Shown here piece after piece: positions 14,354 to 24,502 of a stretch of DNA of 27,361 bases (its first letter is position 1; each line of letters begins with the position of its first letter). Origin of the DNA: a virus; the IMG/VR virus record IMGVR_UViG_3300035698_022155, positions 1-27,361 of that record, one strand, 5' to 3'. The notes under the pieces are model-generated. The model was not told the origin of the DNA and did not search any database. It saw only the letters and a program-made list of their open reading frames with translations. Made by a program: the position numbers and the translations under genes.

Positions 14354-16417
14354 TTAAAGCATTCCTTTTATTTTATCTATTTCGCCAGGGTTAAAACCAT
14401 TTTTACACGCACAATTACCTTTTTCACTCTCAGTTATTATAGCATCTACTCTAGATGGATCAACACCAACAAAATTTACAAGTAGAACTTTCATTCCAGA
14501 ATAATTCCATGGTGAAGATTTCTCTGGTTCAACATTGCTTCTAAAATCTCTACTTAACTCGTCAAGTTTATCGGCATTCATTCTTTCAATATTCTTTTGT
14601 TCAGAAAAACCTACCTTATTATATAAAGTAGACGATTTTTTAGCATTTTGTAATACATTGGAACCTGATAATAACTCAGGACTAAATTCTGATACATATG
14701 TGTTTGTGCCTTCGTCTGTCGAACACTCTACCCAAAATTTTAAATATTTATTAACGCTTTCTAAAAATCTTATCATTGCGTCCAATTCTAAAATATCTGC
14801 TGCTACCTTTACGCTAAGTGTTGATCTTTTTGGTATATCTATTAGATCATCCCATAAGCTACTTAAATACCTATTTAATTTAAGCATTAGATCTTTAAAA
14901 TATTCAGGTAATAATAATGTAAATTTATCAAATGGAACACATATACGTAATGGTCTATCTAATGGTCCCTTTTTTATATTGTATACTCGGCCTAGCCACA
15001 TATTTATACCATCCCTGAAATAACCTGTTAATAAAAATATATAATTCTTTATTATATTTCGTATAAGAACATTCACTATATTTGCTATCATGTTTCCTAA
15101 TTTTGCTATTCCATGTTTATAATCTGTTATCTGAACAGTTCGTGTAAATTTTAATAATCCTACTAGAGTTTTTAATTCATTTATTGCTGTGTCCATACCT
15201 TTTCCGCCGCGCAAACTAGGAATAATTGTTGTAAGATTGTATATAAAACAACATATCATTTCTTCGCTATTTGCCCAACTTTCAAATATCTTGTTCATTT
15301 TTTTTATATATTTTTCTGTTTCTTCTGATACTTTCTCAAACATTTTGTTACTACCAAGTGGCTCTAAATCTATCATTTTCCCACCGGCTGTTTCATTTTC
15401 ATTTTTATACTCATTACCATCGTATTTATAATTATTTTTTATTTTTGTTCCGGCTAAATCTTCGCGCATAACTCTAATATTTTCTTTTACTGCATCATTG
15501 CCAGCTTTTAATTGTAGAGAAATTGATCCGCGAACATCGCTATCTTCTGCTGCAGGTATAGCAGTTTGTTCGAAATTATGATAATGTAGCACGCATTGTG
15601 TATCAGAATCAACATTGCTGCCACCGGTCAAAGTATCCCATGTTACATTTGGTTCAATTGAACTATCATCATCATCATTTTCACTATCTATATCACTATA
15701 TGCTGATACATACCCTAATTTCTTTTTTAATTTTTCGATTTTTCTTTTTATTGATTTTGGTATCTTCTTCGCAAATGGTACACTCTTAAGTGGTTTAACT
15801 AATTTATATAAAAACTCTAAAACCCATATTATTATCTGAATCAATACAACTTTTCCCATCTTAATTGATTGGTCTTGCATAAACTTTTCCTGATCAGCTA
15901 ATATTTGCGTTGGGTCTCTATCTGCATTCATAGATGGTAAATTATTACTATATATTTTATCCTTATTTTTAGCTTTAATTAAGAATGCTTCACCATTTAA
16001 AACATTTGTTGCTGATTGATCTCCACAATACGGACATCTTATACTTTCGTGAAGCAATGGATATTTCTTAGCATCATATGGTATATTTATTTTTCGTATT
16101 TCCTCGTCTAATTTATTTCCTATTATATCTAAATTTTTGTTTATATCATCAGTTCGGCTTAAAAAATTATCTATTCTTTCTTGCTCGTCAGGTGGATATG
16201 TATCTCTAACAGTTTTTTCATTAAATGGGTCAAAATCTCCGAATGCTGCTTTAGCTTTACCTGGATGAAACTTAGCCATATGAGCATTATACGTATCCTC
16301 ATCAGGAAAAGCTTCCTTATGGTATTCACAATAATACCTGAAAAATGGTGGCACACCAAATTTATCAGCATTTATATCTTTTGTATCGTGGTTAAATTCT
16401 GGTTTTTCGAAAACCAT
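14354..16417 (-). CDS. Unrecognised large protein with zinc motifs and a possible membrane helix
   Basis: 687 residues between large terminase and portal, coupled to terminase by a TAATG overlap. Residues 30-51 form a C2H2-like motif (Cys30, His33, His46, His51). Residues 128-131 are CPYC, and the C-terminus has a CACKNGF motif, so several metal sites are possible. Residues about 189-207 (VVLIQIIIWVLEFLYKLV) are very hydrophobic and followed by a dense Lys/Arg stretch (to about 235), as in a membrane helix with a cytoplasmic anchor. The rest is mostly helical. Its position among packaging genes suggests a head-assembly, portal-associated or ejected virion protein. I do not recognise the family. 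Confidence 0.45.
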   Translation of the reverse strand: MVFEKPEFNHDTKDINADKFGVPPFFRYYCEYHKEAFPDEDTYNAHMAKFHPGKAKAAFGDFDPFNEKTVRDTYPPDEQERIDNFLSRTDDINKNLDIIGNKLDEEIRKINIPYDAKKYPLLHESIRCPYCGDQSATNVLNGEAFLIKAKNKDKIYSNNLPSMNADRDPTQILADQEKFMQDQSIKMGKVVLIQIIIWVLEFLYKLVKPLKSVPFAKKIPKSIKRKIEKLKKKLGYVSAYSDIDSENDDDDSSIEPNVTWDTLTGGSNVDSDTQCVLHYHNFEQTAIPAAEDSDVRGSISLQLKAGNDAVKENIRVMREDLAGTKIKNNYKYDGNEYKNENETAGGKMIDLEPLGSNKMFEKVSEETEKYIKKMNKIFESWANSEEMICCFIYNLTTIIPSLRGGKGMDTAINELKTLVGLLKFTRTVQITDYKHGIAKLGNMIANIVNVLIRNIIKNYIFLLTGYFRDGINMWLGRVYNIKKGPLDRPLRICVPFDKFTLLLPEYFKDLMLKLNRYLSSLWDDLIDIPKRSTLSVKVAADILELDAMIRFLESVNKYLKFWVECSTDEGTNTYVSEFSPELLSGSNVLQNAKKSSTLYNKVGFSEQKNIERMNADKLDELSRDFRSNVEPEKSSPWNYSGMKVLLVNFVGVDPSRVDAIITESEKGNCACKNGFNPGEIDKIKGML

Positions 16418-18108
16418 TAGATATTTCTCCTTCTTGGTCTTTTTATATTAACTCTACTAGATGATTTTTTCTCATTGTGTTTAAATGTTACGCGTTTTAG
16501 CATATTAGTTAATTTTTCTTCAGCTTTTGTTTTATCTTTATCATTAAACATTCCCCTTCCCTCTACACCCACGGGAACAACCTGCGCTACAACGCGCTTT
16601 GTTTTAGCGTGAGGTCTTTCTCTAGTTAATGCACTAGTTAATACTGTTACTGCTAACAATGCTAAAAATGTTGCATCTAATTCATGGTCCTGTGTGTTAC
16701 ATTCATAAGATGGATTATTTGTTCCTCTCGAAATCTTTTTAACTCTATATCCTCTCATCGCGCCGGCAACTTGATTCTGCTCGTCTTCAGTTTTAGGCAT
16801 ATTAAATAAACTCTTCTCTAAGAACGATGCGCAATTGTTTACCATAAAAGATTTAGCTGGTTTAGTTATTATTTTATTAGTATACGGATGATACATTTCT
16901 ATCTTTCCACCAAACTCTATTTCTCGTAGTATGCTTCCAAAATAATCATCGTTTGATTCTTCAGCATGTTTATATAACAATTCACCTTGTACCGTTCCAA
17001 AACCATGATCTAAAAATATTCCCTTCAATGGAACATCTTCATATAATTCTATTATTCTATCTACGGCACCTAACTGTGTATATTTAGTTTTTTCTATTCT
17101 ATCTTTTTTCCAAAGCATGACTTTATTTGTTTTTGGGTTTCTTTCAACTATTACTATACTTACGCCAAACAACTCATTCCAATCCACACCCATATAATAT
17201 TCCAATCTTCTATTTACAGTCAATCCTTCATACGTATAATCTTTTAATGCTCCATCAACATACTTAGTTAAGAATACACCTTCTTGCTCTTCTCCAAAAT
17301 TTGCCATATATTCTCTGTTAAACTTTGATTCTGTTTGTGATAACTTCCTGGCCGTTCTTTCTGCTCTATCGTCCCAACCAGGTATATCTGTACAAGGCAC
17401 ATAAAATTCTTCTATATGTTCACCAAAATCGTTTTCCTTTATACCTTGCGCCGCCATAGACATTTCCCAAAAAAGACTGTGTGTCCCGGAAGGCGTAGAG
17501 CTTATAATGAGCTGACATTTCCTATTGTTAACAAATATTGGCATTAGAACTTCACGTATTATCTCGTCTACACCGAAATCTATTTCATCTAGTATTATTA
17601 GATCTGCTCCCAGCGAACGTATATTAGAACCTTTAGTTGCTGATGTTCCACCTGCCGGCATACCAATTATAGATGACCCATTTTTAAACTTTAAAGTGTG
17701 TGGCTGCTGTATATCCTGTATAGGTTTAATATAAGTGTCTTGCATCATAGTTCTTAGCGTTCTAAATATTAATCTCACCTGACTATCGAACGGTGACACT
17801 ATGAGTACTCTAAAATTTGACTTTGTAAATGCGTGCCACAATATTTCTGCTGCCATGGCAATGGTTTTTCCCGCACGTCTAGAACATCTATACACTTTCC
17901 ATCTTCTATCATAATATTCAAAATTATCGGCGTTCAAACATGCAACCGGTTGAAAAGTTACCATATCTTTCTGATACTTTCTAAATGTAAATCTTTCTTT
18001 TGGTGTTATAGGATTTCTTAGAGTTGCTTCAGCCCACCTTATAGGGTCCTGTAATATCGATAGTTCTTTGCGCTCAGACGCTGTTAATGCTTTAAGTACT
18101 TCACTCAT
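16417..18108 (-). CDS. terL: Terminase large subunit (packaging ATPase and nuclease)
   Basis: 563 residues. This is the motor that pumps DNA into the prohead and cuts concatemers. ATPase motifs are Walker A CSRRAGKT (75-82), Walker B LIILDEID (170-177) and the coupling motif SSTPSG (203-208). RNase H-like nuclease motifs follow: YYMGVDWNELFG with Asp309, GIFLDHGFG with Asp367, and NTQDHELDATFLALLA with Asp474/Asp478. All expected acidic residues are present and, unlike two nearby genes, no intein interrupts it. Its start overlaps the previous stop, and its stop overlaps the next start (TAATG both times), so it is translationally coupled in the packaging gene block. Confidence 0.95.
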   Translation of the reverse strand: MSEVLKALTASERKELSILQDPIRWAEATLRNPITPKERFTFRKYQKDMVTFQPVACLNADNFEYYDRRWKVYRCSRRAGKTIAMAAEILWHAFTKSNFRVLIVSPFDSQVRLIFRTLRTMMQDTYIKPIQDIQQPHTLKFKNGSSIIGMPAGGTSATKGSNIRSLGADLIILDEIDFGVDEIIREVLMPIFVNNRKCQLIISSTPSGTHSLFWEMSMAAQGIKENDFGEHIEEFYVPCTDIPGWDDRAERTARKLSQTESKFNREYMANFGEEQEGVFLTKYVDGALKDYTYEGLTVNRRLEYYMGVDWNELFGVSIVIVERNPKTNKVMLWKKDRIEKTKYTQLGAVDRIIELYEDVPLKGIFLDHGFGTVQGELLYKHAEESNDDYFGSILREIEFGGKIEMYHPYTNKIITKPAKSFMVNNCASFLEKSLFNMPKTEDEQNQVAGAMRGYRVKKISRGTNNPSYECNTQDHELDATFLALLAVTVLTSALTRERPHAKTKRVVAQVVPVGVEGRGMFNDKDKTKAEEKLTNMLKRVTFKHNEKKSSSRVNIKRPRRRNI

Positions 18109-18968
18109 TAACCAATTAAAGCAGCATAATTGGCTGCTTCTGTCCCCAAACCACGTCTTCCACCTAAATGTGTTCTCTGTAGCATTTGAACAGCTCTTTG
18201 TCTTTCTGTGGCGGCAGATTGTGTTCTAAATCCTGCACCAAGTGTTCCACCAAACTCTAATGATCTAATTTGTTCTGATTGAGCAGAGGCATAATCAACT
18301 GCTGATACAGCAGCCTTAAACGCTAAAGATGATACGTGACCAATACTACTTCCTATCATATATCCTGTTGCTATTGGTGATAATATTGAACCTAATCGTG
18401 ATAAATTAAGAGTAAGTTCTATTGCTTTCCTTGGCCCAGCCTTTCCCATACTAGCCATGACTTTTGCTATAGTTCCTCCACTATGCGACTTGTGTAGTTT
18501 TCCTATAACCGTGTCTAAAATATCATCTATCGCGCCAGGACCATTCTTAACCCATCTCTTATTTCGTATCGCCGCTGTCATTTCCTTTGTAAAATCCCTA
18601 TAAAAACCTGGATTTCCTGTGCCTATAGCGCCTTCTATTGCATTAGATATACTAAAAGCTCCCATGCCACCAACATCAAATCCCGCGCCAAGGGCACCAG
18701 GTATTACTTTATTGGCTAACCATGAAGACATCGTTGAGCCTATAGGAAATTTCCTAGATATTTTTCTAATTAATCCTTGCCCTACAAATGATGGTAATGA
18801 ATATGGGAATATTGCTAAACTTCCTGTTTTAGCCATATGACCAGCAGCATACATCGATCCCATAGGACTGAAATACCATTTTATGGTACTAAGTGGATTT
18901 TCAAATAGAAGTGATCCTACTCCACCTCTGTTCTCTATTTGTCTTCGTGCGCTATTTTGTGTGTCCAT
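18108..18968 (-). CDS. Small Gly/Ala-rich virion-region protein upstream of terminase
   Basis: 286 residues, basic, rich in Gly, Ala, Ser and Ile, with several amphipathic or weakly hydrophobic segments (AIFPYSLPSFVGQGLIRKIS, ILSPIATGYMIGSSIGHVSS). The C-terminal part (GTLGAGFRTQSAATERQRAV, then RTHLGGRRGLGTEAANYAAL) is basic and low-complexity. It is coupled by TAATG overlaps to both neighbours. It forms a block with the 69-, 223- and 153-residue proteins to its right, which share this composition. Such proteins could be internal virion proteins ejected with the DNA, or peptides lining the head. No family recognised. Confidence 0.45.
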   Translation of the reverse strand: MDTQNSARRQIENRGGVGSLLFENPLSTIKWYFSPMGSMYAAGHMAKTGSLAIFPYSLPSFVGQGLIRKISRKFPIGSTMSSWLANKVIPGALGAGFDVGGMGAFSISNAIEGAIGTGNPGFYRDFTKEMTAAIRNKRWVKNGPGAIDDILDTVIGKLHKSHSGGTIAKVMASMGKAGPRKAIELTLNLSRLGSILSPIATGYMIGSSIGHVSSLAFKAAVSAVDYASAQSEQIRSLEFGGTLGAGFRTQSAATERQRAVQMLQRTHLGGRRGLGTEAANYAALIG

Positions 18969-20464
18969 TATATTGTGGATGAATGTCTCATATCGTGTAG
19001 ACTCAGAGATAGTCCCTCAGTTGATAAATGATTACTAGGCATTCCTGAATTATGTGAAATAATACCATTTGCTAATATAAATAAATGATTATCAGATTCA
19101 ACCTCTATATCATAGAAATTTAAACCCGACACATAATTAATATCTTTCACTATTATACTTCTAACATTATTAGATACAAATGATGGTACCGTTTTAAATA
19201 CTTGTGATCTTACTAATGATTTTCTTATTTCATACTTTGTTGCTTCATATTCTTTACTTAATTTTTTATTACTTATAATTCTAGGATATCTTCTACATAT
19301 CCACCCGAGTAATAAACATACTAGGTTAAATTGTTTTTCTAATTTACTATTTCTAGCTAAACCAATTAACCATCTATTATTATCATCTTCATAATACCCA
19401 TCACCATTTAAAAATGCGTTCATCATCTCTGTCAACCAATCTACACCATATGAAAAACATTCATTTTTCAAACACTTAGTATGAACATTTTTACCACCAA
19501 TAAATCTCTCAATTAAAGACTGTGTTAACCTAGAACCGTATACCCGTACTACCAAAGTGTTACCTATTCCTGCAATATGTTTGCTCCCAGAAATACCATA
19601 TTTTTCTTTAAAAAAATTAAGTAATTTGTCAGCAACATGCTCCTCATTAATATTCAATGTAAATTGGATCCCATCTTCAGTATAACAACCTTCAGCTAAA
19701 TACCAACCAATTATATATGCCCAATCAATTCCAAAATATTCGGGCGTATTTACACTTTTATTTTCAATAGTTGCGACACTACAAATAACATCGTTAACTT
19801 TAATATATTGGGCTTCTTTTAATTCATGGGTATTTTCTGTAGCAATTAATAAGCGATGATTTTTACTACATGTCACCGTACAACCATTATCGCCAATTAT
19901 TTGAATGCCATCCTTTTTTTCAGTTTTCCATACATTTTTGATATCCACCCAAATCGTATTGCCGGACTCATCAATTGATGGTATTTGAGCATCCATATTT
20001 TTTATTCGTGCTAATTCTCGAAGTTCCATAAACTTTAACTTTCCATGAGTATAACAATATATTGATGATGAACCAACCAAACATTTCTTTGACCAACTTA
20101 TCATTCCTGATCCAGCACCTATCCCTCTTTCCTGAGTTGCGGCCTCTGGTGACAACCATGACATAGTGTTAAATATACTTTTACTTAAAGCGTAAGCACC
20201 TACAGCTATTCCTAAACCTACTGCACCGTATCTTACTCTTTTAGGTGTAAGTGTCGCATTTAAAAACCTACTCATCTTTCCGGAAAATGCTGATCTGGAG
20301 GCACTACGTATTCCTCTAAATGCATTTGCAAAACCTTTTACGTTAAGATTCTGCTGCTGAACATATCCTCTTGGTGCTCCTGGTTTATTAGGGAGCCTAG
20401 CGTATTGATTTATAAACTTCCTAGTTTTTGGTAAATATGATCTACCTCTGCTTAATGTTGGCAT
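18968..20464 (-). CDS. Small basic protein (153-residue mature form) interrupted by a LAGLIDADG intein
   Basis: The precursor is 498 residues from an ATG at 20464. I prefer this over a longer TTG reading because GGAGG lies 6 nt upstream and the ATG follows the previous stop by 1 nt. Residues 1-127 and the last 26 residues are host protein; residues 128-472 are the intein. Predicted splicing (…ISWSKK joined to SGMPSNHLST…) gives 153 residues with a basic N-terminus, a Gly/Ala-rich possible membrane helix (RYGAVGLGIAVGAYALSK) and a GLSLSLHDMRHSSTI end. It belongs to the block of small basic proteins before terminase. Function unknown, possibly an internal virion protein. Confidence 0.7.
   Translation of the reverse strand: MPTLSRGRSYLPKTRKFINQYARLPNKPGAPRGYVQQQNLNVKGFANAFRGIRSASRSAFSGKMSRFLNATLTPKRVRYGAVGLGIAVGAYALSKSIFNTMSWLSPEAATQERGIGAGSGMISWSKKCLVGSSSIYCYTHGKLKFMELRELARIKNMDAQIPSIDESGNTIWVDIKNVWKTEKKDGIQIIGDNGCTVTCSKNHRLLIATENTHELKEAQYIKVNDVICSVATIENKSVNTPEYFGIDWAYIIGWYLAEGCYTEDGIQFTLNINEEHVADKLLNFFKEKYGISGSKHIAGIGNTLVVRVYGSRLTQSLIERFIGGKNVHTKCLKNECFSYGVDWLTEMMNAFLNGDGYYEDDNNRWLIGLARNSKLEKQFNLVCLLLGWICRRYPRIISNKKLSKEYEATKYEIRKSLVRSQVFKTVPSFVSNNVRSIIVKDINYVSGLNFYDIEVESDNHLFILANGIISHNSGMPSNHLSTEGLSLSLHDMRHSSTI
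19049..20083 (-). mobile_element. Intein with LAGLIDADG homing endonuclease (345 residues)
   Basis: The intein starts with Cys (after WSKK) and ends in GIISHN before Ser, so all splice-junction residues are canonical: Cys1, terminal His-Asn, +1 Ser. Block B is SKNH within TCSKNHRLL; block F is FYDIEVESDNHLFI. The centre has two LAGLIDADG-type helices, YIIGWYLAEGCY (with Glu) and MMNAFLNGDGYY (with Asp), about 90 residues apart as in two-repeat homing endonucleases. Splicing and nuclease activity both look intact. Confidence 0.9.
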
Positions 20465-20465
20465 A

Positions 20466-21137
20466 TTATACCTCCGTTCCTGATCTATACATTCTTCTGG
20501 CGTTTCCTCTTGCAAATCTATATGTTGCTGAAGTTACGCCAAAACTTGCTACAGTTGGTGCAGCTAAAACTGCTAAATTAGATGCTAACCTTGGACCTTC
20601 CAATAACGCTTTACTACCTTCGGCCAAACCTATTGTCTCCATAGCTCTATCGCGTCCGGACATAATAGCACCCTGTATTCTTCCAACAACATGATCATTG
20701 TTCTTAGGTATAAATTTTCCTAAAGTTGCCTTTATTGCATCAGAAGTCTCATTTGCCTTCCAATCATATTTACTAGATCTGTATAAAAGATCGCCTACCC
20801 TTTGGCGCACATCTGCTGTGCGTTTAGCTAAAGCGTATCCTAGCTTATCAGTCTTGTTTATTCCTATGTTTGGCAACCTATTTAAAAGTTTACCTTCCTC
20901 CCCAGGGATAGCGCCGGCAACTTGTTTAACAACATCCCGCATGCCACCAGCAAACATTCCCTTACCGCGATAAGCGGCCGACCGTAGAACGTGCATACTT
21001 CTATGATACGGCAATGCAGCCTTTAAAGTCTTTCCTATCGCTACAGCTGCTTTACCTGGTCCATACCCCGGTACGAGATATCCTAGTGGATTTCCTACCA
21101 ACCCACCCTTACGAAACATACCAAGAAACTTATTCAT
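20466..21137 (-). CDS. Small Gly/Ala-rich basic protein
   Basis: 223 residues, strongly basic, starting MNKFLGMFRKGGLVGNPLGY, with Gly/Pro/Lys-rich N-terminus (VPGYGPGKAAVAIGKTLKAA) and an Ala/Val-rich, possibly membrane-interacting C-terminus (ASNLAVLAAPTVASFGVTSA) followed by RFARGNARRMYRSG. The start overlaps the 69-residue gene's stop (TAATG); its stop is 1 nt before the intein-bearing gene. Composition and position match the neighbouring small proteins, suggesting a common role such as internal head or ejection proteins. No family recognised. Confidence 0.45.
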   Translation of the reverse strand: MNKFLGMFRKGGLVGNPLGYLVPGYGPGKAAVAIGKTLKAALPYHRSMHVLRSAAYRGKGMFAGGMRDVVKQVAGAIPGEEGKLLNRLPNIGINKTDKLGYALAKRTADVRQRVGDLLYRSSKYDWKANETSDAIKATLGKFIPKNNDHVVGRIQGAIMSGRDRAMETIGLAEGSKALLEGPRLASNLAVLAAPTVASFGVTSATYRFARGNARRMYRSGTEV

Positions 21138-21346
21138 TAAATTTCGCCTTGAATTTTCATCTTAGAATATTTATTCGCAGTATCTGCTAATCTAAGACCA
21201 AGTCCGCGAGTGGCTTTCAGCCCTACGCTCTTTCTAACTCTACCCATACCAAGTTTTCTAATAAAATCTAATTTCTTTAACATATTACTATTCATTAACC
21301 CTATCGGTTTCAGGGCCTTCAATAAATTAGGATTTCGTAACAACAT
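21137..21346 (-). CDS. Small basic protein (69 residues)
   Basis: 69 residues, about one quarter Lys/Arg (LKKLDFIRKLGMGRVRKSVG, KATRGLGLRL). GAGGAG lies a few nt upstream inside the end of the preceding gene, which it overlaps by 20 nt; it is coupled to the next gene by TAATG. It may bind nucleic acid or a membrane. Function unknown. Confidence 0.5.
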   Translation of the reverse strand: MLLRNPNLLKALKPIGLMNSNMLKKLDFIRKLGMGRVRKSVGLKATRGLGLRLADTANKYSKMKIQGEI

Positions 21347-23942
21347 CTGATATCTCCTCTACGTCTATAACTCTAGTGTCTTCGGCATGCTCTTTTTCTA
21401 ACTGAGCCGCGCGCTCACGTAATGAAGCAGCGTACTCATCCGGAGTAGCTCCAACATCCTTAAGAAATTTAGCCTTTGCTTCTCTTGTTGCTATCATCTC
21501 TTTAAGAACCTTACTCCTACGATTAGTCAAAGTCTGCTTAACTGATATTGCCAAATTAACTATTGTTTGTGTTATTGGGTTTCCACCATCATCTATTCCT
21601 ACAAACACTTCCTGAGTGAGCCCATCTTGGGCCAGCATATTGCTAGCCCGGTTGTTTACTAGATCAAGCTCTATTAATTCGATTATCAGCATTCTATCTA
21701 CTCTATCGCTCCAATCGACGTCCATGGAGTCAATATATTCGTCTTTCCATTTATTTACTAGAAATAATTCGACCGGGCAGTTGTGTGTAACGATTCCGCC
21801 CGCAATATAAGTTTTATATTTATCAACATCTAAAGAATAAACAATACCATCATAATCTTCATATTTTATATTACATTCTTCCCAATAATTTTTCTCATAT
21901 GATAAAAAACCATATTTTGTTTTTTTTCGTTTTCCTGAAAAAATAGGTACATCCATAACTCCAGGTAAAATGTTACATGTTCTTATATACATGGGCCACT
22001 TAACATATGGTCCTATTTCAGGTGTGTCATCAGAAAATCCTCCTCTTCTCCATATTGGATAAGCTTCAGATAACCCTAATGATTCCAATAATTCTTTATA
22101 AAAATTAGCAGGTTTTTTAAGACGGTTATGATGCGCATTTATCTGTTCTTGTGTCGCCCATTTATAAATACCATTATAAACAGTTTTTTGTCTATCTAAA
22201 CAATTAGCAAATGATAAACGACTTACCTGAAATTTTAAGGAATAATACTCCTCATCCAAATAAGCTTCCGTATTGGTATCATAAATACCTAATATCCACA
22301 TTTTATCTGCTTCCTCTTTAACAGCTCTCTGTGTAAAATTCATATAAAGTTTATGTTTACTACCACTTTTTTTATATTTTGATATTAATTTACTTTTACC
22401 AATTCTCCAATAATCACCCTTTCTCATTAAATAAACACAAAACTTACCAACAGCTTTATCATTAAATTTTGCAACAGAAATATGATCGTATGTAACTTTA
22501 TGTTTATAGCCATTAGCAGTAGATAACTCAATTATATTACCTTTAAAAGATCTTTTACCTATCTTAAAATTATAACCGACTTTTTTCTTATTTCTAAATA
22601 CTTGATGTTTTCTTTCCCATACTACTAAAGTGTGAATATTTTCATCAAGCTCTTCGATGTTAACATATCCATATTTTTCAGTATAAATTTTTTCGCCCGG
22701 AGGATGGCATATTTTTCCTACCGGCGCCTTATCTAATTCCTCAAGCGGACACTTTTTAGACATAACACAATTATGAGTAACAATATCATTAGACACATAT
22801 GTTCCATATTTATCAACATCCAGACTATAAACTATTCCATCATAATCACGAAAACTTGTTTTAACTTTTTTCCATGTTGGTCTAATACCACATTTTTTCT
22901 TACCAATAGTTCCATCTTTTCTTTTATAATCCCTAACCACTACCTCACCCGGCATAGTAGGAATACTCATACAGTCACTCAATACATTGCAAGCTCTTAT
23001 TATCAAAACATTTTTATAGCCAAGTTTATCGAAATTCTTTTCTTTTCCAGAAAACTTACATATTACAGATTTATCCTTATGTCTTGACCAAAATGGATAA
23101 TTAATATCAAGACCAAACTGATAAAGTTTTTTCGCATAATAATCTCTCGGTTTATATAAACTCTGATGATGAGCATCAAGTTGTTCCTGTGTTACCCATC
23201 TATATAAACCTTTAGATTTACCAACTTGTCCTCTATGTGGAACAACAAAACAAGCTTTTGGTGTGCCCCATTCTGCCGAGTAAAATTCCTCACCCAACAA
23301 TGCCTCTGTGTTAGTATCATAAATACCTAAAATCCATAATCTATCGGCTTTTTCGCCAAATACTCTTGAAGATGGAACAAATGTTCCACCATATTTTTCA
23401 GAATTCCGAAAAAGTTGTGTTTTTCCTATTCTAAAAAAATCATCTTTTTGCATAAGATATACAACAAATTTTCCCTTAGCGCACTCATTCCATTTTGCTA
23501 CAACAAAATGATTATTGGTGCATTCATATGATTGTTTATTAGACTTCAACTGAAACATTTTTCCATGATAATTTCTACTGGTTTTTGTAAAAACGTATCC
23601 TTGATTGTTAGTTCCAGGTTTACCTGAACGAACAACATGATTATTTAAATCATATGTTGATAATCTATGAGTATCGCTATTAAGTTCTTCAATCGATATC
23701 TTACCATGAGAAACAGTATCAATCATAGTTCCCGGTGGTTGACACTCGTCAGCATGACAAACCATAGGTGCATTATAAGTCTCACTTAAAATATTACGCT
23801 TAAGACTCGTTTTAAGACGAGATATCTCTTTATCTGTCAACGCTAGGCTCTGCTTAGTATCATCATCCATCTGACCTATGATACCGGCTAAGTCATTATC
23901 GGTTATGTCTACTAGCGCTGTAGTTTTTATTTCTTCTTCCAT
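21327..23942 (-). CDS. Four-cysteine protein (possible small terminase) interrupted by two inteins
   Basis: The precursor is 871 residues from an ATG at 23942, chosen because it follows the stop of a 28-codon ORF by 1 nt; a GTG 30 nt upstream is the alternative. Inteins occupy residues 67-391 and 412-721. Splicing leaves 236 residues with the cluster C-x4-C-x5-C-x13-C (CHADECVMSKKCPLEELD, then APVGKICPVE), likely a zinc or iron site. After it come an acidic helical middle and TNRRSKVLKEMIATREAKAK near the end. A CPL…P.GK.CP.E pattern before the large terminase is, from memory, seen in other phages in the small-terminase position. That role is inferred; the extein boundaries are well supported. 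Confidence 0.65.
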   Translation of the reverse strand: MEEEIKTTALVDITDNDLAGIIGQMDDDTKQSLALTDKEISRLKTSLKRNILSETYNAPMVCHADECQPPGTMIDTVSHGKISIEELNSDTHRLSTYDLNNHVVRSGKPGTNNQGYVFTKTSRNYHGKMFQLKSNKQSYECTNNHFVVAKWNECAKGKFVVYLMQKDDFFRIGKTQLFRNSEKYGGTFVPSSRVFGEKADRLWILGIYDTNTEALLGEEFYSAEWGTPKACFVVPHRGQVGKSKGLYRWVTQEQLDAHHQSLYKPRDYYAKKLYQFGLDINYPFWSRHKDKSVICKFSGKEKNFDKLGYKNVLIIRACNVLSDCMSIPTMPGEVVVRDYKRKDGTIGKKKCGIRPTWKKVKTSFRDYDGIVYSLDVDKYGTYVSNDIVTHNCVMSKKCPLEELDKAPVGKICHPPGEKIYTEKYGYVNIEELDENIHTLVVWERKHQVFRNKKKVGYNFKIGKRSFKGNIIELSTANGYKHKVTYDHISVAKFNDKAVGKFCVYLMRKGDYWRIGKSKLISKYKKSGSKHKLYMNFTQRAVKEEADKMWILGIYDTNTEAYLDEEYYSLKFQVSRLSFANCLDRQKTVYNGIYKWATQEQINAHHNRLKKPANFYKELLESLGLSEAYPIWRRGGFSDDTPEIGPYVKWPMYIRTCNILPGVMDVPIFSGKRKKTKYGFLSYEKNYWEECNIKYEDYDGIVYSLDVDKYKTYIAGGIVTHNCPVELFLVNKWKDEYIDSMDVDWSDRVDRMLIIELIELDLVNNRASNMLAQDGLTQEVFVGIDDGGNPITQTIVNLAISVKQTLTNRRSKVLKEMIATREAKAKFLKDVGATPDEYAASLRERAAQLEKEHAEDTRVIDVEEISDVVTKS
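21780..22709 (-). mobile_element. Intein 2 with GIY-YIG-like insert (310 residues)
   Basis: It starts CHPPGEKI after VGKI and ends GGIVTHN before Cys, with block B TYDH and a VYSLDVDKYKTYIAGG block F, so splicing residues are canonical. The insert contains VYLMRKGDYWRIGKSKL, an Arg in FTQRAVKEEAD, and WILGIYDTNTEAYLDEEYYS. These match the order of the GIY, YIG, catalytic Arg and catalytic Glu elements of T5orf172/MUG113-type GIY-YIG nucleases. No LAGLIDADG motif is present. It is clearly a sister of intein 1. Confidence 0.8.
22770..23744 (-). mobile_element. Intein 1 with GIY-YIG-like insert (325 residues)
   Basis: It starts CQPPGTMI after CHADE and ends NDIVTHN before Cys. Block B is TNNH and block F VYSLDVDKYGTYV. 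The insert has VYLMQKDDFFRIGKTQL, Arg in SSRVFGEKAD, and WILGIYDTNTEALLGEEFYS, then a conserved helical tail (WVTQEQLDAHHQSLYKPRDY). The same segments in the same order occur in intein 2, but only about half the residues match by eye, so the duplication is not recent. Confidence 0.8.
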
Positions 23943-23943
23943 A

Positions 23944-24030
23944 TTAGCATCCGCCTCTGCGTCTGCCTCCACGTTTTATACTTGGCCTTGGTGATCTTTC
24001 TCTTGGTCCTTTTCCGTCTCCGCCTGGCAT
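23944..24030 (-). CDS. 28-residue Gly/Arg-rich peptide
   Basis: An ATG at 24030 has GGAG 9 nt upstream (AAAAGGAGCAATATC). It encodes MPGGDGKGPRERSPRPSIKR followed by GGRRRGGC and stops 1 nt before the ATG of the four-cysteine gene, so the two are probably coupled. The MPGGDGKGP opening and terminal Cys recall the small DUF5320-type peptides (MPxGDGTGP…GxC) seen in prokaryotes and phages, but the match is short. It could be a leader whose translation controls the next gene, or a small DNA- or RNA-binding peptide. Confidence 0.5.
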   Translation of the reverse strand: MPGGDGKGPRERSPRPSIKRGGRRRGGC

Positions 24031-24043
24031 GATATTGCTCCTT

Positions 24044-24502
24044 TTAATTATTCTTTTTCAACAACTTTAGTCTTCTTCGCATATAATCTTCTTTCTGATC
24101 ATATCTGAATCTTACTATCTTCCATCCGTTCTCTATCATTATTTTGCTTTTAAGCTTATCGATCTTCTTACTTTTCTCAAAATTCTTTTTAGTTTTATGA
24201 AAATGCTTTATAAATTTAAAATGCTGCTCACCATCGTATTCAACACACAATTTATATTCCGGAACAACAATATCCATTCTATAAAATCTATTAAACTGAA
24301 ATATTGCTTCCTGGAGCGTCTTGCTCTTAAACACTTCCCTGACTATCTTATATAACATCGTCTGGGGCTTACTTACCTTTTTTCCGTATCTCAGAGCTAC
24401 TATGTTATATTTATTATTATGAATGTATCTTTTTCTATCCCTGTGGCAAACATATTGTTTACCTAATCTTCCGCATACCCAACATACATCATTTTTGTTC
24501 AT
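24044..24502 (-). CDS. Vsr-like (EDxHD-type) endonuclease, probable free-standing homing nuclease
   Basis: 152 residues. An N-terminal metal-binding candidate (Cys7, Cys10, Cys19, His20) precedes a PD-(D/E)xK-like core of the Vsr/DUF559 type: YRMDIVVPEYKLCVEYDGEQ (Asp77, Glu88, Asp90, then His94), KKIDKLKSKIMIENGW (Asp115, Lys120) and IVRFRYD. Phages commonly carry such nucleases as free-standing homing endonucleases next to inteins, introns or split genes. It overlaps the upstream helix-turn-helix gene by 14 nt. It could act on an intein-less copy of a neighbouring gene. A DNA-repair or packaging role is less likely but not excluded. Confidence 0.75.
   Translation of the reverse strand: MNKNDVCWVCGRLGKQYVCHRDRKRYIHNNKYNIVALRYGKKVSKPQTMLYKIVREVFKSKTLQEAIFQFNRFYRMDIVVPEYKLCVEYDGEQHFKFIKHFHKTKKNFEKSKKIDKLKSKIMIENGWKIVRFRYDQKEDYMRRRLKLLKKNN

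Follow-up and report, generated by a model that had tools for sequence, protein, structure and literature searches.

Two related inteins before conserved cysteines of one four-cysteine cluster in a phage gene

Introduction

The closest known counterparts of the inteins described here reside in the UvrD-type helicase genes of phages. The intein of gp34.33 of the Bacillus phage SPO1 and its SPO1-type relatives align with the second of our two inteins over its whole length at 29–31% identity; like it, they combine the Hint domain with an insert bearing a YLM...R-[IV]-G motif, and the element is annotated as an intein in its record. They differ from it in their helicase host, in the serine that occupies the +1 position in SPO1 and CampHawk, and in their place in the intein tree, outside the clade specific to the gene studied here. 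In phage phiBsKO1-1 (L009) the SPO1-type intein region is split over several frames of an unannotated record, owing to either sequencing errors or decay.

With respect to the crowding of insertion sites, the nearest parallel is found in the haloarchaeal MCM inteins, for which the accessible text of one report (PMC10643990) describes several close sites in one conserved gene and some genomes with two inteins. There the sites are four neighbouring ones, whereas those of our gene are the cysteines of a single cluster, and host, intein and probably nuclease type differ as well. The same text indicates that close sites can both be filled but that two inteins home poorly together into an empty allele, which fits the observation that most intein-bearing phages in our collection have one intein.

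A third point of comparison is the MoaA intein of Pyrococcus abyssi, which resembles our first intein in having an N-extein cysteine near intein Cys1, so that a disulfide is conceivable in both. In MoaA that cysteine lies at −3 and a disulfide is reported in the available portions of the literature (PMC3922620, PMC10663303), whereas in our gene the nearest cysteines lie at −5 (intein 1) and −14 (intein 2) and a disulfide is hypothetical. Within the accessible parts of the open-access literature we found no report of three intein sites in one four-cysteine cluster.

Here we report a viral gene in which two inteins precede two cysteines of such a cluster, and we discuss how they may have come to occupy these positions.

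The four-cysteine gene and its inteins

The window, by which we denote the whole stretch of DNA analysed, is a virus record of 27,361 bases. A single open frame on its minus strand (21327–23972), referred to below as the four-cysteine gene, contains both inteins (Table 1) and encodes a precursor of 881 aa when read from the GTG at 23972 or 871 aa from the ATG at 23942. The spliced extein would comprise 246 or 236 aa, respectively, and the length of 236 residues given in a preliminary description of this DNA is correct when counted from the ATG. In the 236-residue form the only cysteines are residues 62, 67, 73 and 87, which make up a C-x4-C-x5-C-x13-C cluster with the sequence C-HADE-C-VMSKK-C-PLEELDKAPVGKI-C once spliced. 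The 325-aa and 310-aa inteins lie in the one frame exactly before the second and fourth of these cysteines, as the preliminary description had placed them; its view of the two as related yet diverged is likewise borne out by an identity of 38% across 332 aligned columns (E 2e-72).

Table 1. Coordinates of the parts of the four-cysteine gene and of the large terminase gene in the window
Feature	Position	Strand	Remarks	Basis
N-extein	23745..23972	(-)	Cluster Cys1 followed by HADE at its C-terminal end; start at the ATG at 23942 or at the in-frame GTG further upstream at 23972	Homologues
Intein 1, 325 aa	22770..23744	(-)	Directly 5' of cluster Cys2; CQPPGT...IVTHN/C; Hint halves flank a GIY-YIG-like insert	
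Middle extein, 20 aa	22710..22769	(-)	Holds cluster Cys2 and Cys3	
Intein 2, 310 aa	21780..22709	(-)	Directly 5' of cluster Cys4; CHPPGE...IVTHN/C; Hint halves flank a GIY-YIG-like insert	
Insert of intein 2, residues 86-222	22044..22454	(-)	Putative, divergent GIY-YIG-like domain	No Pfam match
C-extein	21330..21779	(-)	Cluster Cys4 and a predicted helical, small-terminase-like domain; stop codon at 21327-21329	
Large terminase subunit	16417..18108	(-)	Three genes downstream of the four-cysteine gene	

Both inteins possess a cysteine at position 1, the TxxH motif, the C-terminal His-Asn and a +1 cysteine, the motifs being assigned by the block names of class 1 inteins. Their Pfam Intein_splicing scores, 19.6 and 33.5 bits, fall below the curated cut-off of 35.8. 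The model of intein 2 (pLDDT 88, pTM 0.85) clearly has the Hint fold, matching solved Hint and intein structures with Z values of 14.7–19.3 among the best 50 matches listed; Hint proteins fill these comparisons, which are a poor test of the insert. Intein 1 is assigned the same fold by homology only. The window contains no tRNA and no Rfam match.

The central insert

The insert of intein 2 carries the invariant residues Tyr93, Arg102, Gly104, Arg128 and Glu153, and the positions invariant across 14 inteins include, besides these, Leu94, Met95, Glu132 and Trp138. In the model the invariant insert residues fall along a strand (90–97), a second strand (100–107), a helix (124–131), a third strand (136–143) and a second helix (146–159). 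A strand–strand–helix–strand–helix arrangement with the motif residues in order is what is expected of GIY-YIG nucleases, and the motif residues of the insert sit on this expected order of secondary structure.

Sequence comparisons give a fainter signal. At E-values up to 10 no GIY-YIG family of Pfam, among them PF01541, PF10544 and PF13455, matched the insert; three inserts matched nothing at all, and among 13 inserts eight unrelated families each matched a single insert (best E 0.007). A profile built from the inserts of 13 of the 14 inteins (L045 was left out) scored 20.3 against 17 T5orf172 proteins, compared with a maximum of 10.8 in 30 column shuffles, albeit over 18 columns and with a probability of 7%. 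Against a combined T5orf172/MUG113 profile it scored 19.15 (shuffled 11.7; probability 5%), while a shortened insert scored lower (15.9 and 14.3) and the comparison with MUG113 alone gave 13.8, below the shuffled maximum of 16.7. The insert shares with GIY-YIG and T5orf172 nucleases the order of its motif residues and its predicted strand–strand–helix–strand–helix succession, and departs from them in the lack of a Pfam match, the weak profile match and its second motif, R-[IV]-G. On this motif order and the model, we regard the insert as probably a divergent GIY-YIG nuclease.

Such a nuclease-like insert would be unusual for inteins. According to the available text of a 2006 survey, no intein with GIY-YIG had been found up to that time (PMC1564403); a 2020 paper reports, in its available text, a split intein with a GIY-YIG gene lying between its halves (PMC7891396). 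In the accessible open-access literature we found no report of a GIY-YIG domain within an intein. Full-length relatives occur in phage UvrD-type helicase and methylase genes, and also at six loci of the genome collection. One UvrD-like frame (L047, 2–5863) holds three intein-like elements with the YLM-type insert motif, two of which form a separate deep branch.

Host homologues and the conserved cysteines

A tblastn search with the spliced extein recovered homologues in Moorella phage MTATph1, Bacillus phage KLEB27-3 and Acinetobacter phage ME3 (two records), those of MTATph1 and KLEB27-3 being free of inteins and carrying the same cluster. A profile scan keyed to the cluster returned 20 viral loci, of which 17 were translated; 16 of these were intein-free and had the cluster, and the other (L026) was ME3. 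The three left untranslated (L014, L015 and L018) gave matches of the same length, identity and E-value as L012/L013. Scanning viral contigs with the extein or intein 2 as single-sequence queries was unproductive.

The scan was repeated with the C-terminal half of the protein, independently of the cluster, and yielded 140 relatives, 80 of which were kept and examined. The cluster, whose presence in intein-free homologues the preliminary description had proposed to check, was found in 76 of the 80 loci, in one frame of 188–268 aa (one, L114, is truncated by the contig end). The remaining four comprise two inteins, at Cys4 in L055 (the L048 contig) and at Cys3 in L086, and two frameshifts. The latter, in L087 and L089, were considered as a split or intein-bearing gene and rejected, the two loci being identical and having only a frameshift inside the cluster, which is probably an assembly or sequencing fault.

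Aligning 36 intein-free sequences left a Glu, an Arg and a Thr column as the only invariant ones besides the four cysteines. Spacing varies among distant members (x3 in L027, L029 and L030; x14 in L024 and L028) and among intein carriers (a first gap of x5 in L031, a second gap of x4 in L050). The four invariant cysteines probably bind a metal.

Probable identity of the host protein

Searches with sequence profiles said little about the function of the host protein. PHROG and Pfam scans of its family gave scattered matches, with no PHROG or Pfam family reaching more than 4 of 36 members and best E-values of 0.0076 and 0.0043; in another scan one of four members touched a small-terminase PHROG (E 0.047), and sequence searches of solved structures were unproductive.

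The model of L054, an intein-free homologue, has block means of 90–96 pLDDT over residues 71–190, cluster included. When it was compared with a viral structure library, the first four ranks were probably filled by members of the host family itself (ME3 at rank 4), and of the 45 rows ranked 6–50, 24 named small terminase, with E-values from 1.4e-3 down. The same model weakly matches the HK97 small terminase (PDB 6z6e, 8pop) with Z values of 7.8 and 7.5 (rmsd 3.7 and 3.5), although such values may, as the tool warns, be unspecific for helical folds. Of 41 loci examined, some of them near copies, 18 have a large terminase gene downstream on the same strand and two (L027 and L030) have one on the other strand, the fetched flank of the other 21 containing no match. 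In seven records searched whole it was found on the same strand every time, about 2–6 kb downstream. In one of these, the L031 contig, the match (G144:C1:98256-99497) lies inside an open frame of 1027 aa, compared with 536–688 aa in the other six, and may hold an insert.

The balance of these observations tips towards a small-terminase-like subunit, as judged from sequence context and model. Our protein, as modelled, resembles the HK97 small terminase in its helical core and in having its gene near the large terminase, and the two differ in that no sequence family match connects them; the four-cysteine cluster is, to our knowledge, an extra feature relative to HK97. Herpesvirus small terminases carry zinc fingers, according to the accessible text of PMC9611059, which we cite by way of analogy only. 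The main competing view, less probable but still a serious contender, is that the four-cysteine knuckle belongs to a different head or neck protein or to a regulator. The thin family matches agree with it, as does the fact that the top solved structure by Z is the phi29 connector (9.5, rmsd 6.9), above the HK97 small terminase; the small-terminase names in the viral library and the large terminase gene following downstream in the same orientation speak against it.

Intein sites across phages

In total, nine insertions were found in eight distinct phages, two at Cys2, three at Cys3 and four at Cys4; L048 and L049 are identical in the four-cysteine gene and are counted as one phage. Scans keyed to the inteins showed that, besides the window, the Cys2 site is filled in L167 and the Cys4 site in L031, L048/L049 and L050. 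At Cys3, ME3, L086 and L170 carry a mini-intein unrelated to those of the window, which in ME3 measures 153 aa and lies before the third cysteine. The ME3 gene itself (ME3_9; L005, 4078–5373) is annotated as an RNA (guanine-N1-)-methyltransferase, and by sequence is the four-cysteine protein split by the mini-intein. No intein was seen at Cys1 or outside the cluster, a statement that rests mainly on the 80-locus scan since the intein-keyed scans detect only these intein families.

Intein-free alleles of the host gene exist both across the family (76 of 80 loci) and between close relatives. L048 and L054 form a filled and empty pair at Cys4, with gene flanks 88% and 87% identical, large terminases 92% identical and the intein placed exactly at the Cys4 codon. 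This pair and the intein-free homologues match the extein boundaries originally proposed.

Neighbouring genes

Between the four-cysteine and large terminase genes of the window lies a gene containing a third intein (18968–20515, minus strand; Pfam Intein_splicing E 1.5e-12). It has a homologue in L054 (54% over 416 aa), and L048 matches over only 26 aa; this intein, too, seems to be present in some relatives and absent from others. Immediately upstream of the four-cysteine gene (24044–24502, minus strand) is encoded a DUF559/HNH-endonuclease-PHROG protein, likely a free-standing homing endonuclease by its family matches, that is found in the same place in L048 and L054 (46%), with or without the intein.

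Targeting of conserved codons or regulated splicing

Protein splicing needs Cys, Ser or Thr at the +1 position. Only five C/S/T columns of the host family are at least 90% conserved, and these are the four cluster cysteines and one threonine. Inteins preferentially occupy conserved sites, according to the accessible part of a published analysis (PMC2814812). The cysteine codons can therefore be understood as targets because they are nearly the sole conserved codons that supply a suitable +1 residue, and simple targeting of conserved codons, one of the two options raised in the preliminary description, suffices to explain the placement. That all three occupied sites are at cysteines has P=0.4 under the null of conserved C/S/T columns, compared with P = 7e-4 if any of 33 C/S/T residues is allowed; under the former null, placement at cysteines was discarded as evidence for regulation.

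The other option, a conditional switch, we judge improbable. Redox state or metal would pause splicing such that the packaging protein matures only in suitable conditions, either through oxidation, such as a disulfide that would join Cys1 of intein 1 to cluster Cys1 at −5, or through zinc bound in the half-built cluster, two routes that share this low standing. The arrangement has its attractions: cluster cysteines provide the +1 nucleophiles, the −5 position of intein 1 is occupied by one as well, and the accessible literature offers precedents in the Cys-3/Cys1 disulfide of P. abyssi MoaA (PMC3922620, PMC10663303) and in the mycobacterial DnaB intein, inhibited by zinc (PMC7360933) and by peroxide (PMC6195587). 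Yet conserved-codon targeting already accounts for the placement, and the 76 of 80 relatives that lack an intein rule out a family-wide switch. The geometry allows a redox or zinc switch and nothing here demands one; it is not the reading we prefer.

It had further been claimed that the metal site cannot form until both inteins have spliced. This stands for the native cluster. It does not extend to any metal site whatsoever, given that each intein starts with a cysteine of its own and that the ligand position, viewed from the N-terminal part of the precursor, would therefore still be filled by a cysteine; a mock metal site built with these residues is conceivable. Taken further, metal or oxidation at the half-built site might silence the terminase precursor until conditions suit, as a lock with two keys on packaging for which the inteins would be kept, a proposal that we regard as a long shot, less probable still than a switch in general.

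Relationship and spread of the inteins

Of the 20 inteins placed in a tree, those of the four-cysteine gene, six in number, make up a single clade (99/99), in which the closest partner of intein 1 is L167 (98/98) and that of intein 2 is L048 (100/98), followed by L050 (99/97) and then, weakly, L031 (85/69); an earlier tree without L167 gave the Cys4 group a support of 94/88. Each window intein hence groups with those at the same cysteine in other phages, and the earlier designation of the two as sisters does not hold. These site-specific branches suggest that one intein lineage came to use two cysteines of the gene, each site keeping a branch of its own, a pattern that selfish elements on unchangeable codons fit better than a switch does. 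The Cys3 mini-inteins have no convincing match to the insert-bearing lineage (best E 0.04), their likeness being to inteins in helicase and DNA polymerase genes of phages; L170 is absent from the tree and from the identity comparison.

In the insert-bearing lineage, intein identity exceeds host-core identity in all seven same-site pairs (intein/host core 59/40, 45/29, 44/30, 47/31, 43/30, 43/27 and 48/24%), which are drawn from six inteins and are not independent. The one pair of Cys3 mini-inteins compared, which have no insert, shows the reverse (40% intein versus 55% host). The large terminases of the window and L048 are 37% identical, those of the window and L050 29%. G+C content is lower in the intein than in the host in four of five cases, namely both window inteins (0.32 and 0.29 versus 0.40), L048 and L050, and equal in L031. 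We read the greater likeness of the inteins than of their hosts as homing, and the sequences fit a spread of the insert-bearing inteins between phages by this route; stronger constraint on the inteins could also produce it.

That the inteins are inert remains, having lost both splicing and homing, is very unlikely. Pfam scores under the curated cut-off might hint at such decay, but the splicing residues of both inteins and the invariant insert residues are kept, the fold of intein 2 is predicted with confidence, and between intein 2 and L048 dN (0.25–0.44 by region; 0.23 in residues 90–160) is well below dS (1.5–2.5, near saturation) in every region, insert included. Least credible of all is a local duplication within the window phage, which the relatedness of two inteins 20 residues apart in one gene might suggest but which the tree contradicts, and intein 1 is no more identical to intein 2 (42%) than to L031 (44%).

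A model for the four-cysteine gene

The likely and best explanation, in our opinion, is that selfish inteins landed on conserved cysteine codons of a packaging-type gene and spread by homing. The product of the gene would be a phage protein of the head or the packaging machinery, conserved and most likely small-terminase-like, with four cysteines that probably act as metal ligands. An intein lineage equipped with its own homing endonuclease, probably of the GIY-YIG type, would have come to hold two of the four cysteine codons, each site-specific lineage then passing between phages through homing, while an unrelated mini-intein would have occupied the third cysteine in other phages. The host protein would be functional once both inteins are spliced out. 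Within this explanation, that the inteins splice and home, that the insert acts as a nuclease, and that the host binds metal and works as a small terminase are inferences.

If the insert is indeed of the GIY-YIG type, it adds to inteins a nuclease type that was absent from them in the 2006 survey, as far as its accessible text goes (PMC1564403). Were the lock on packaging true, each intein would take a cluster cysteine as its +1 nucleophile, with its own first cysteine standing in for the absent ligand. Across different phages, two unrelated intein lineages occupy three of the four cysteines of a short motif, and close relatives provide a filled and an empty allele. The four-cysteine gene may thus serve as a compact natural system in which to ask whether metal-site cysteines are occupied through codon conservation alone or through regulated splicing.
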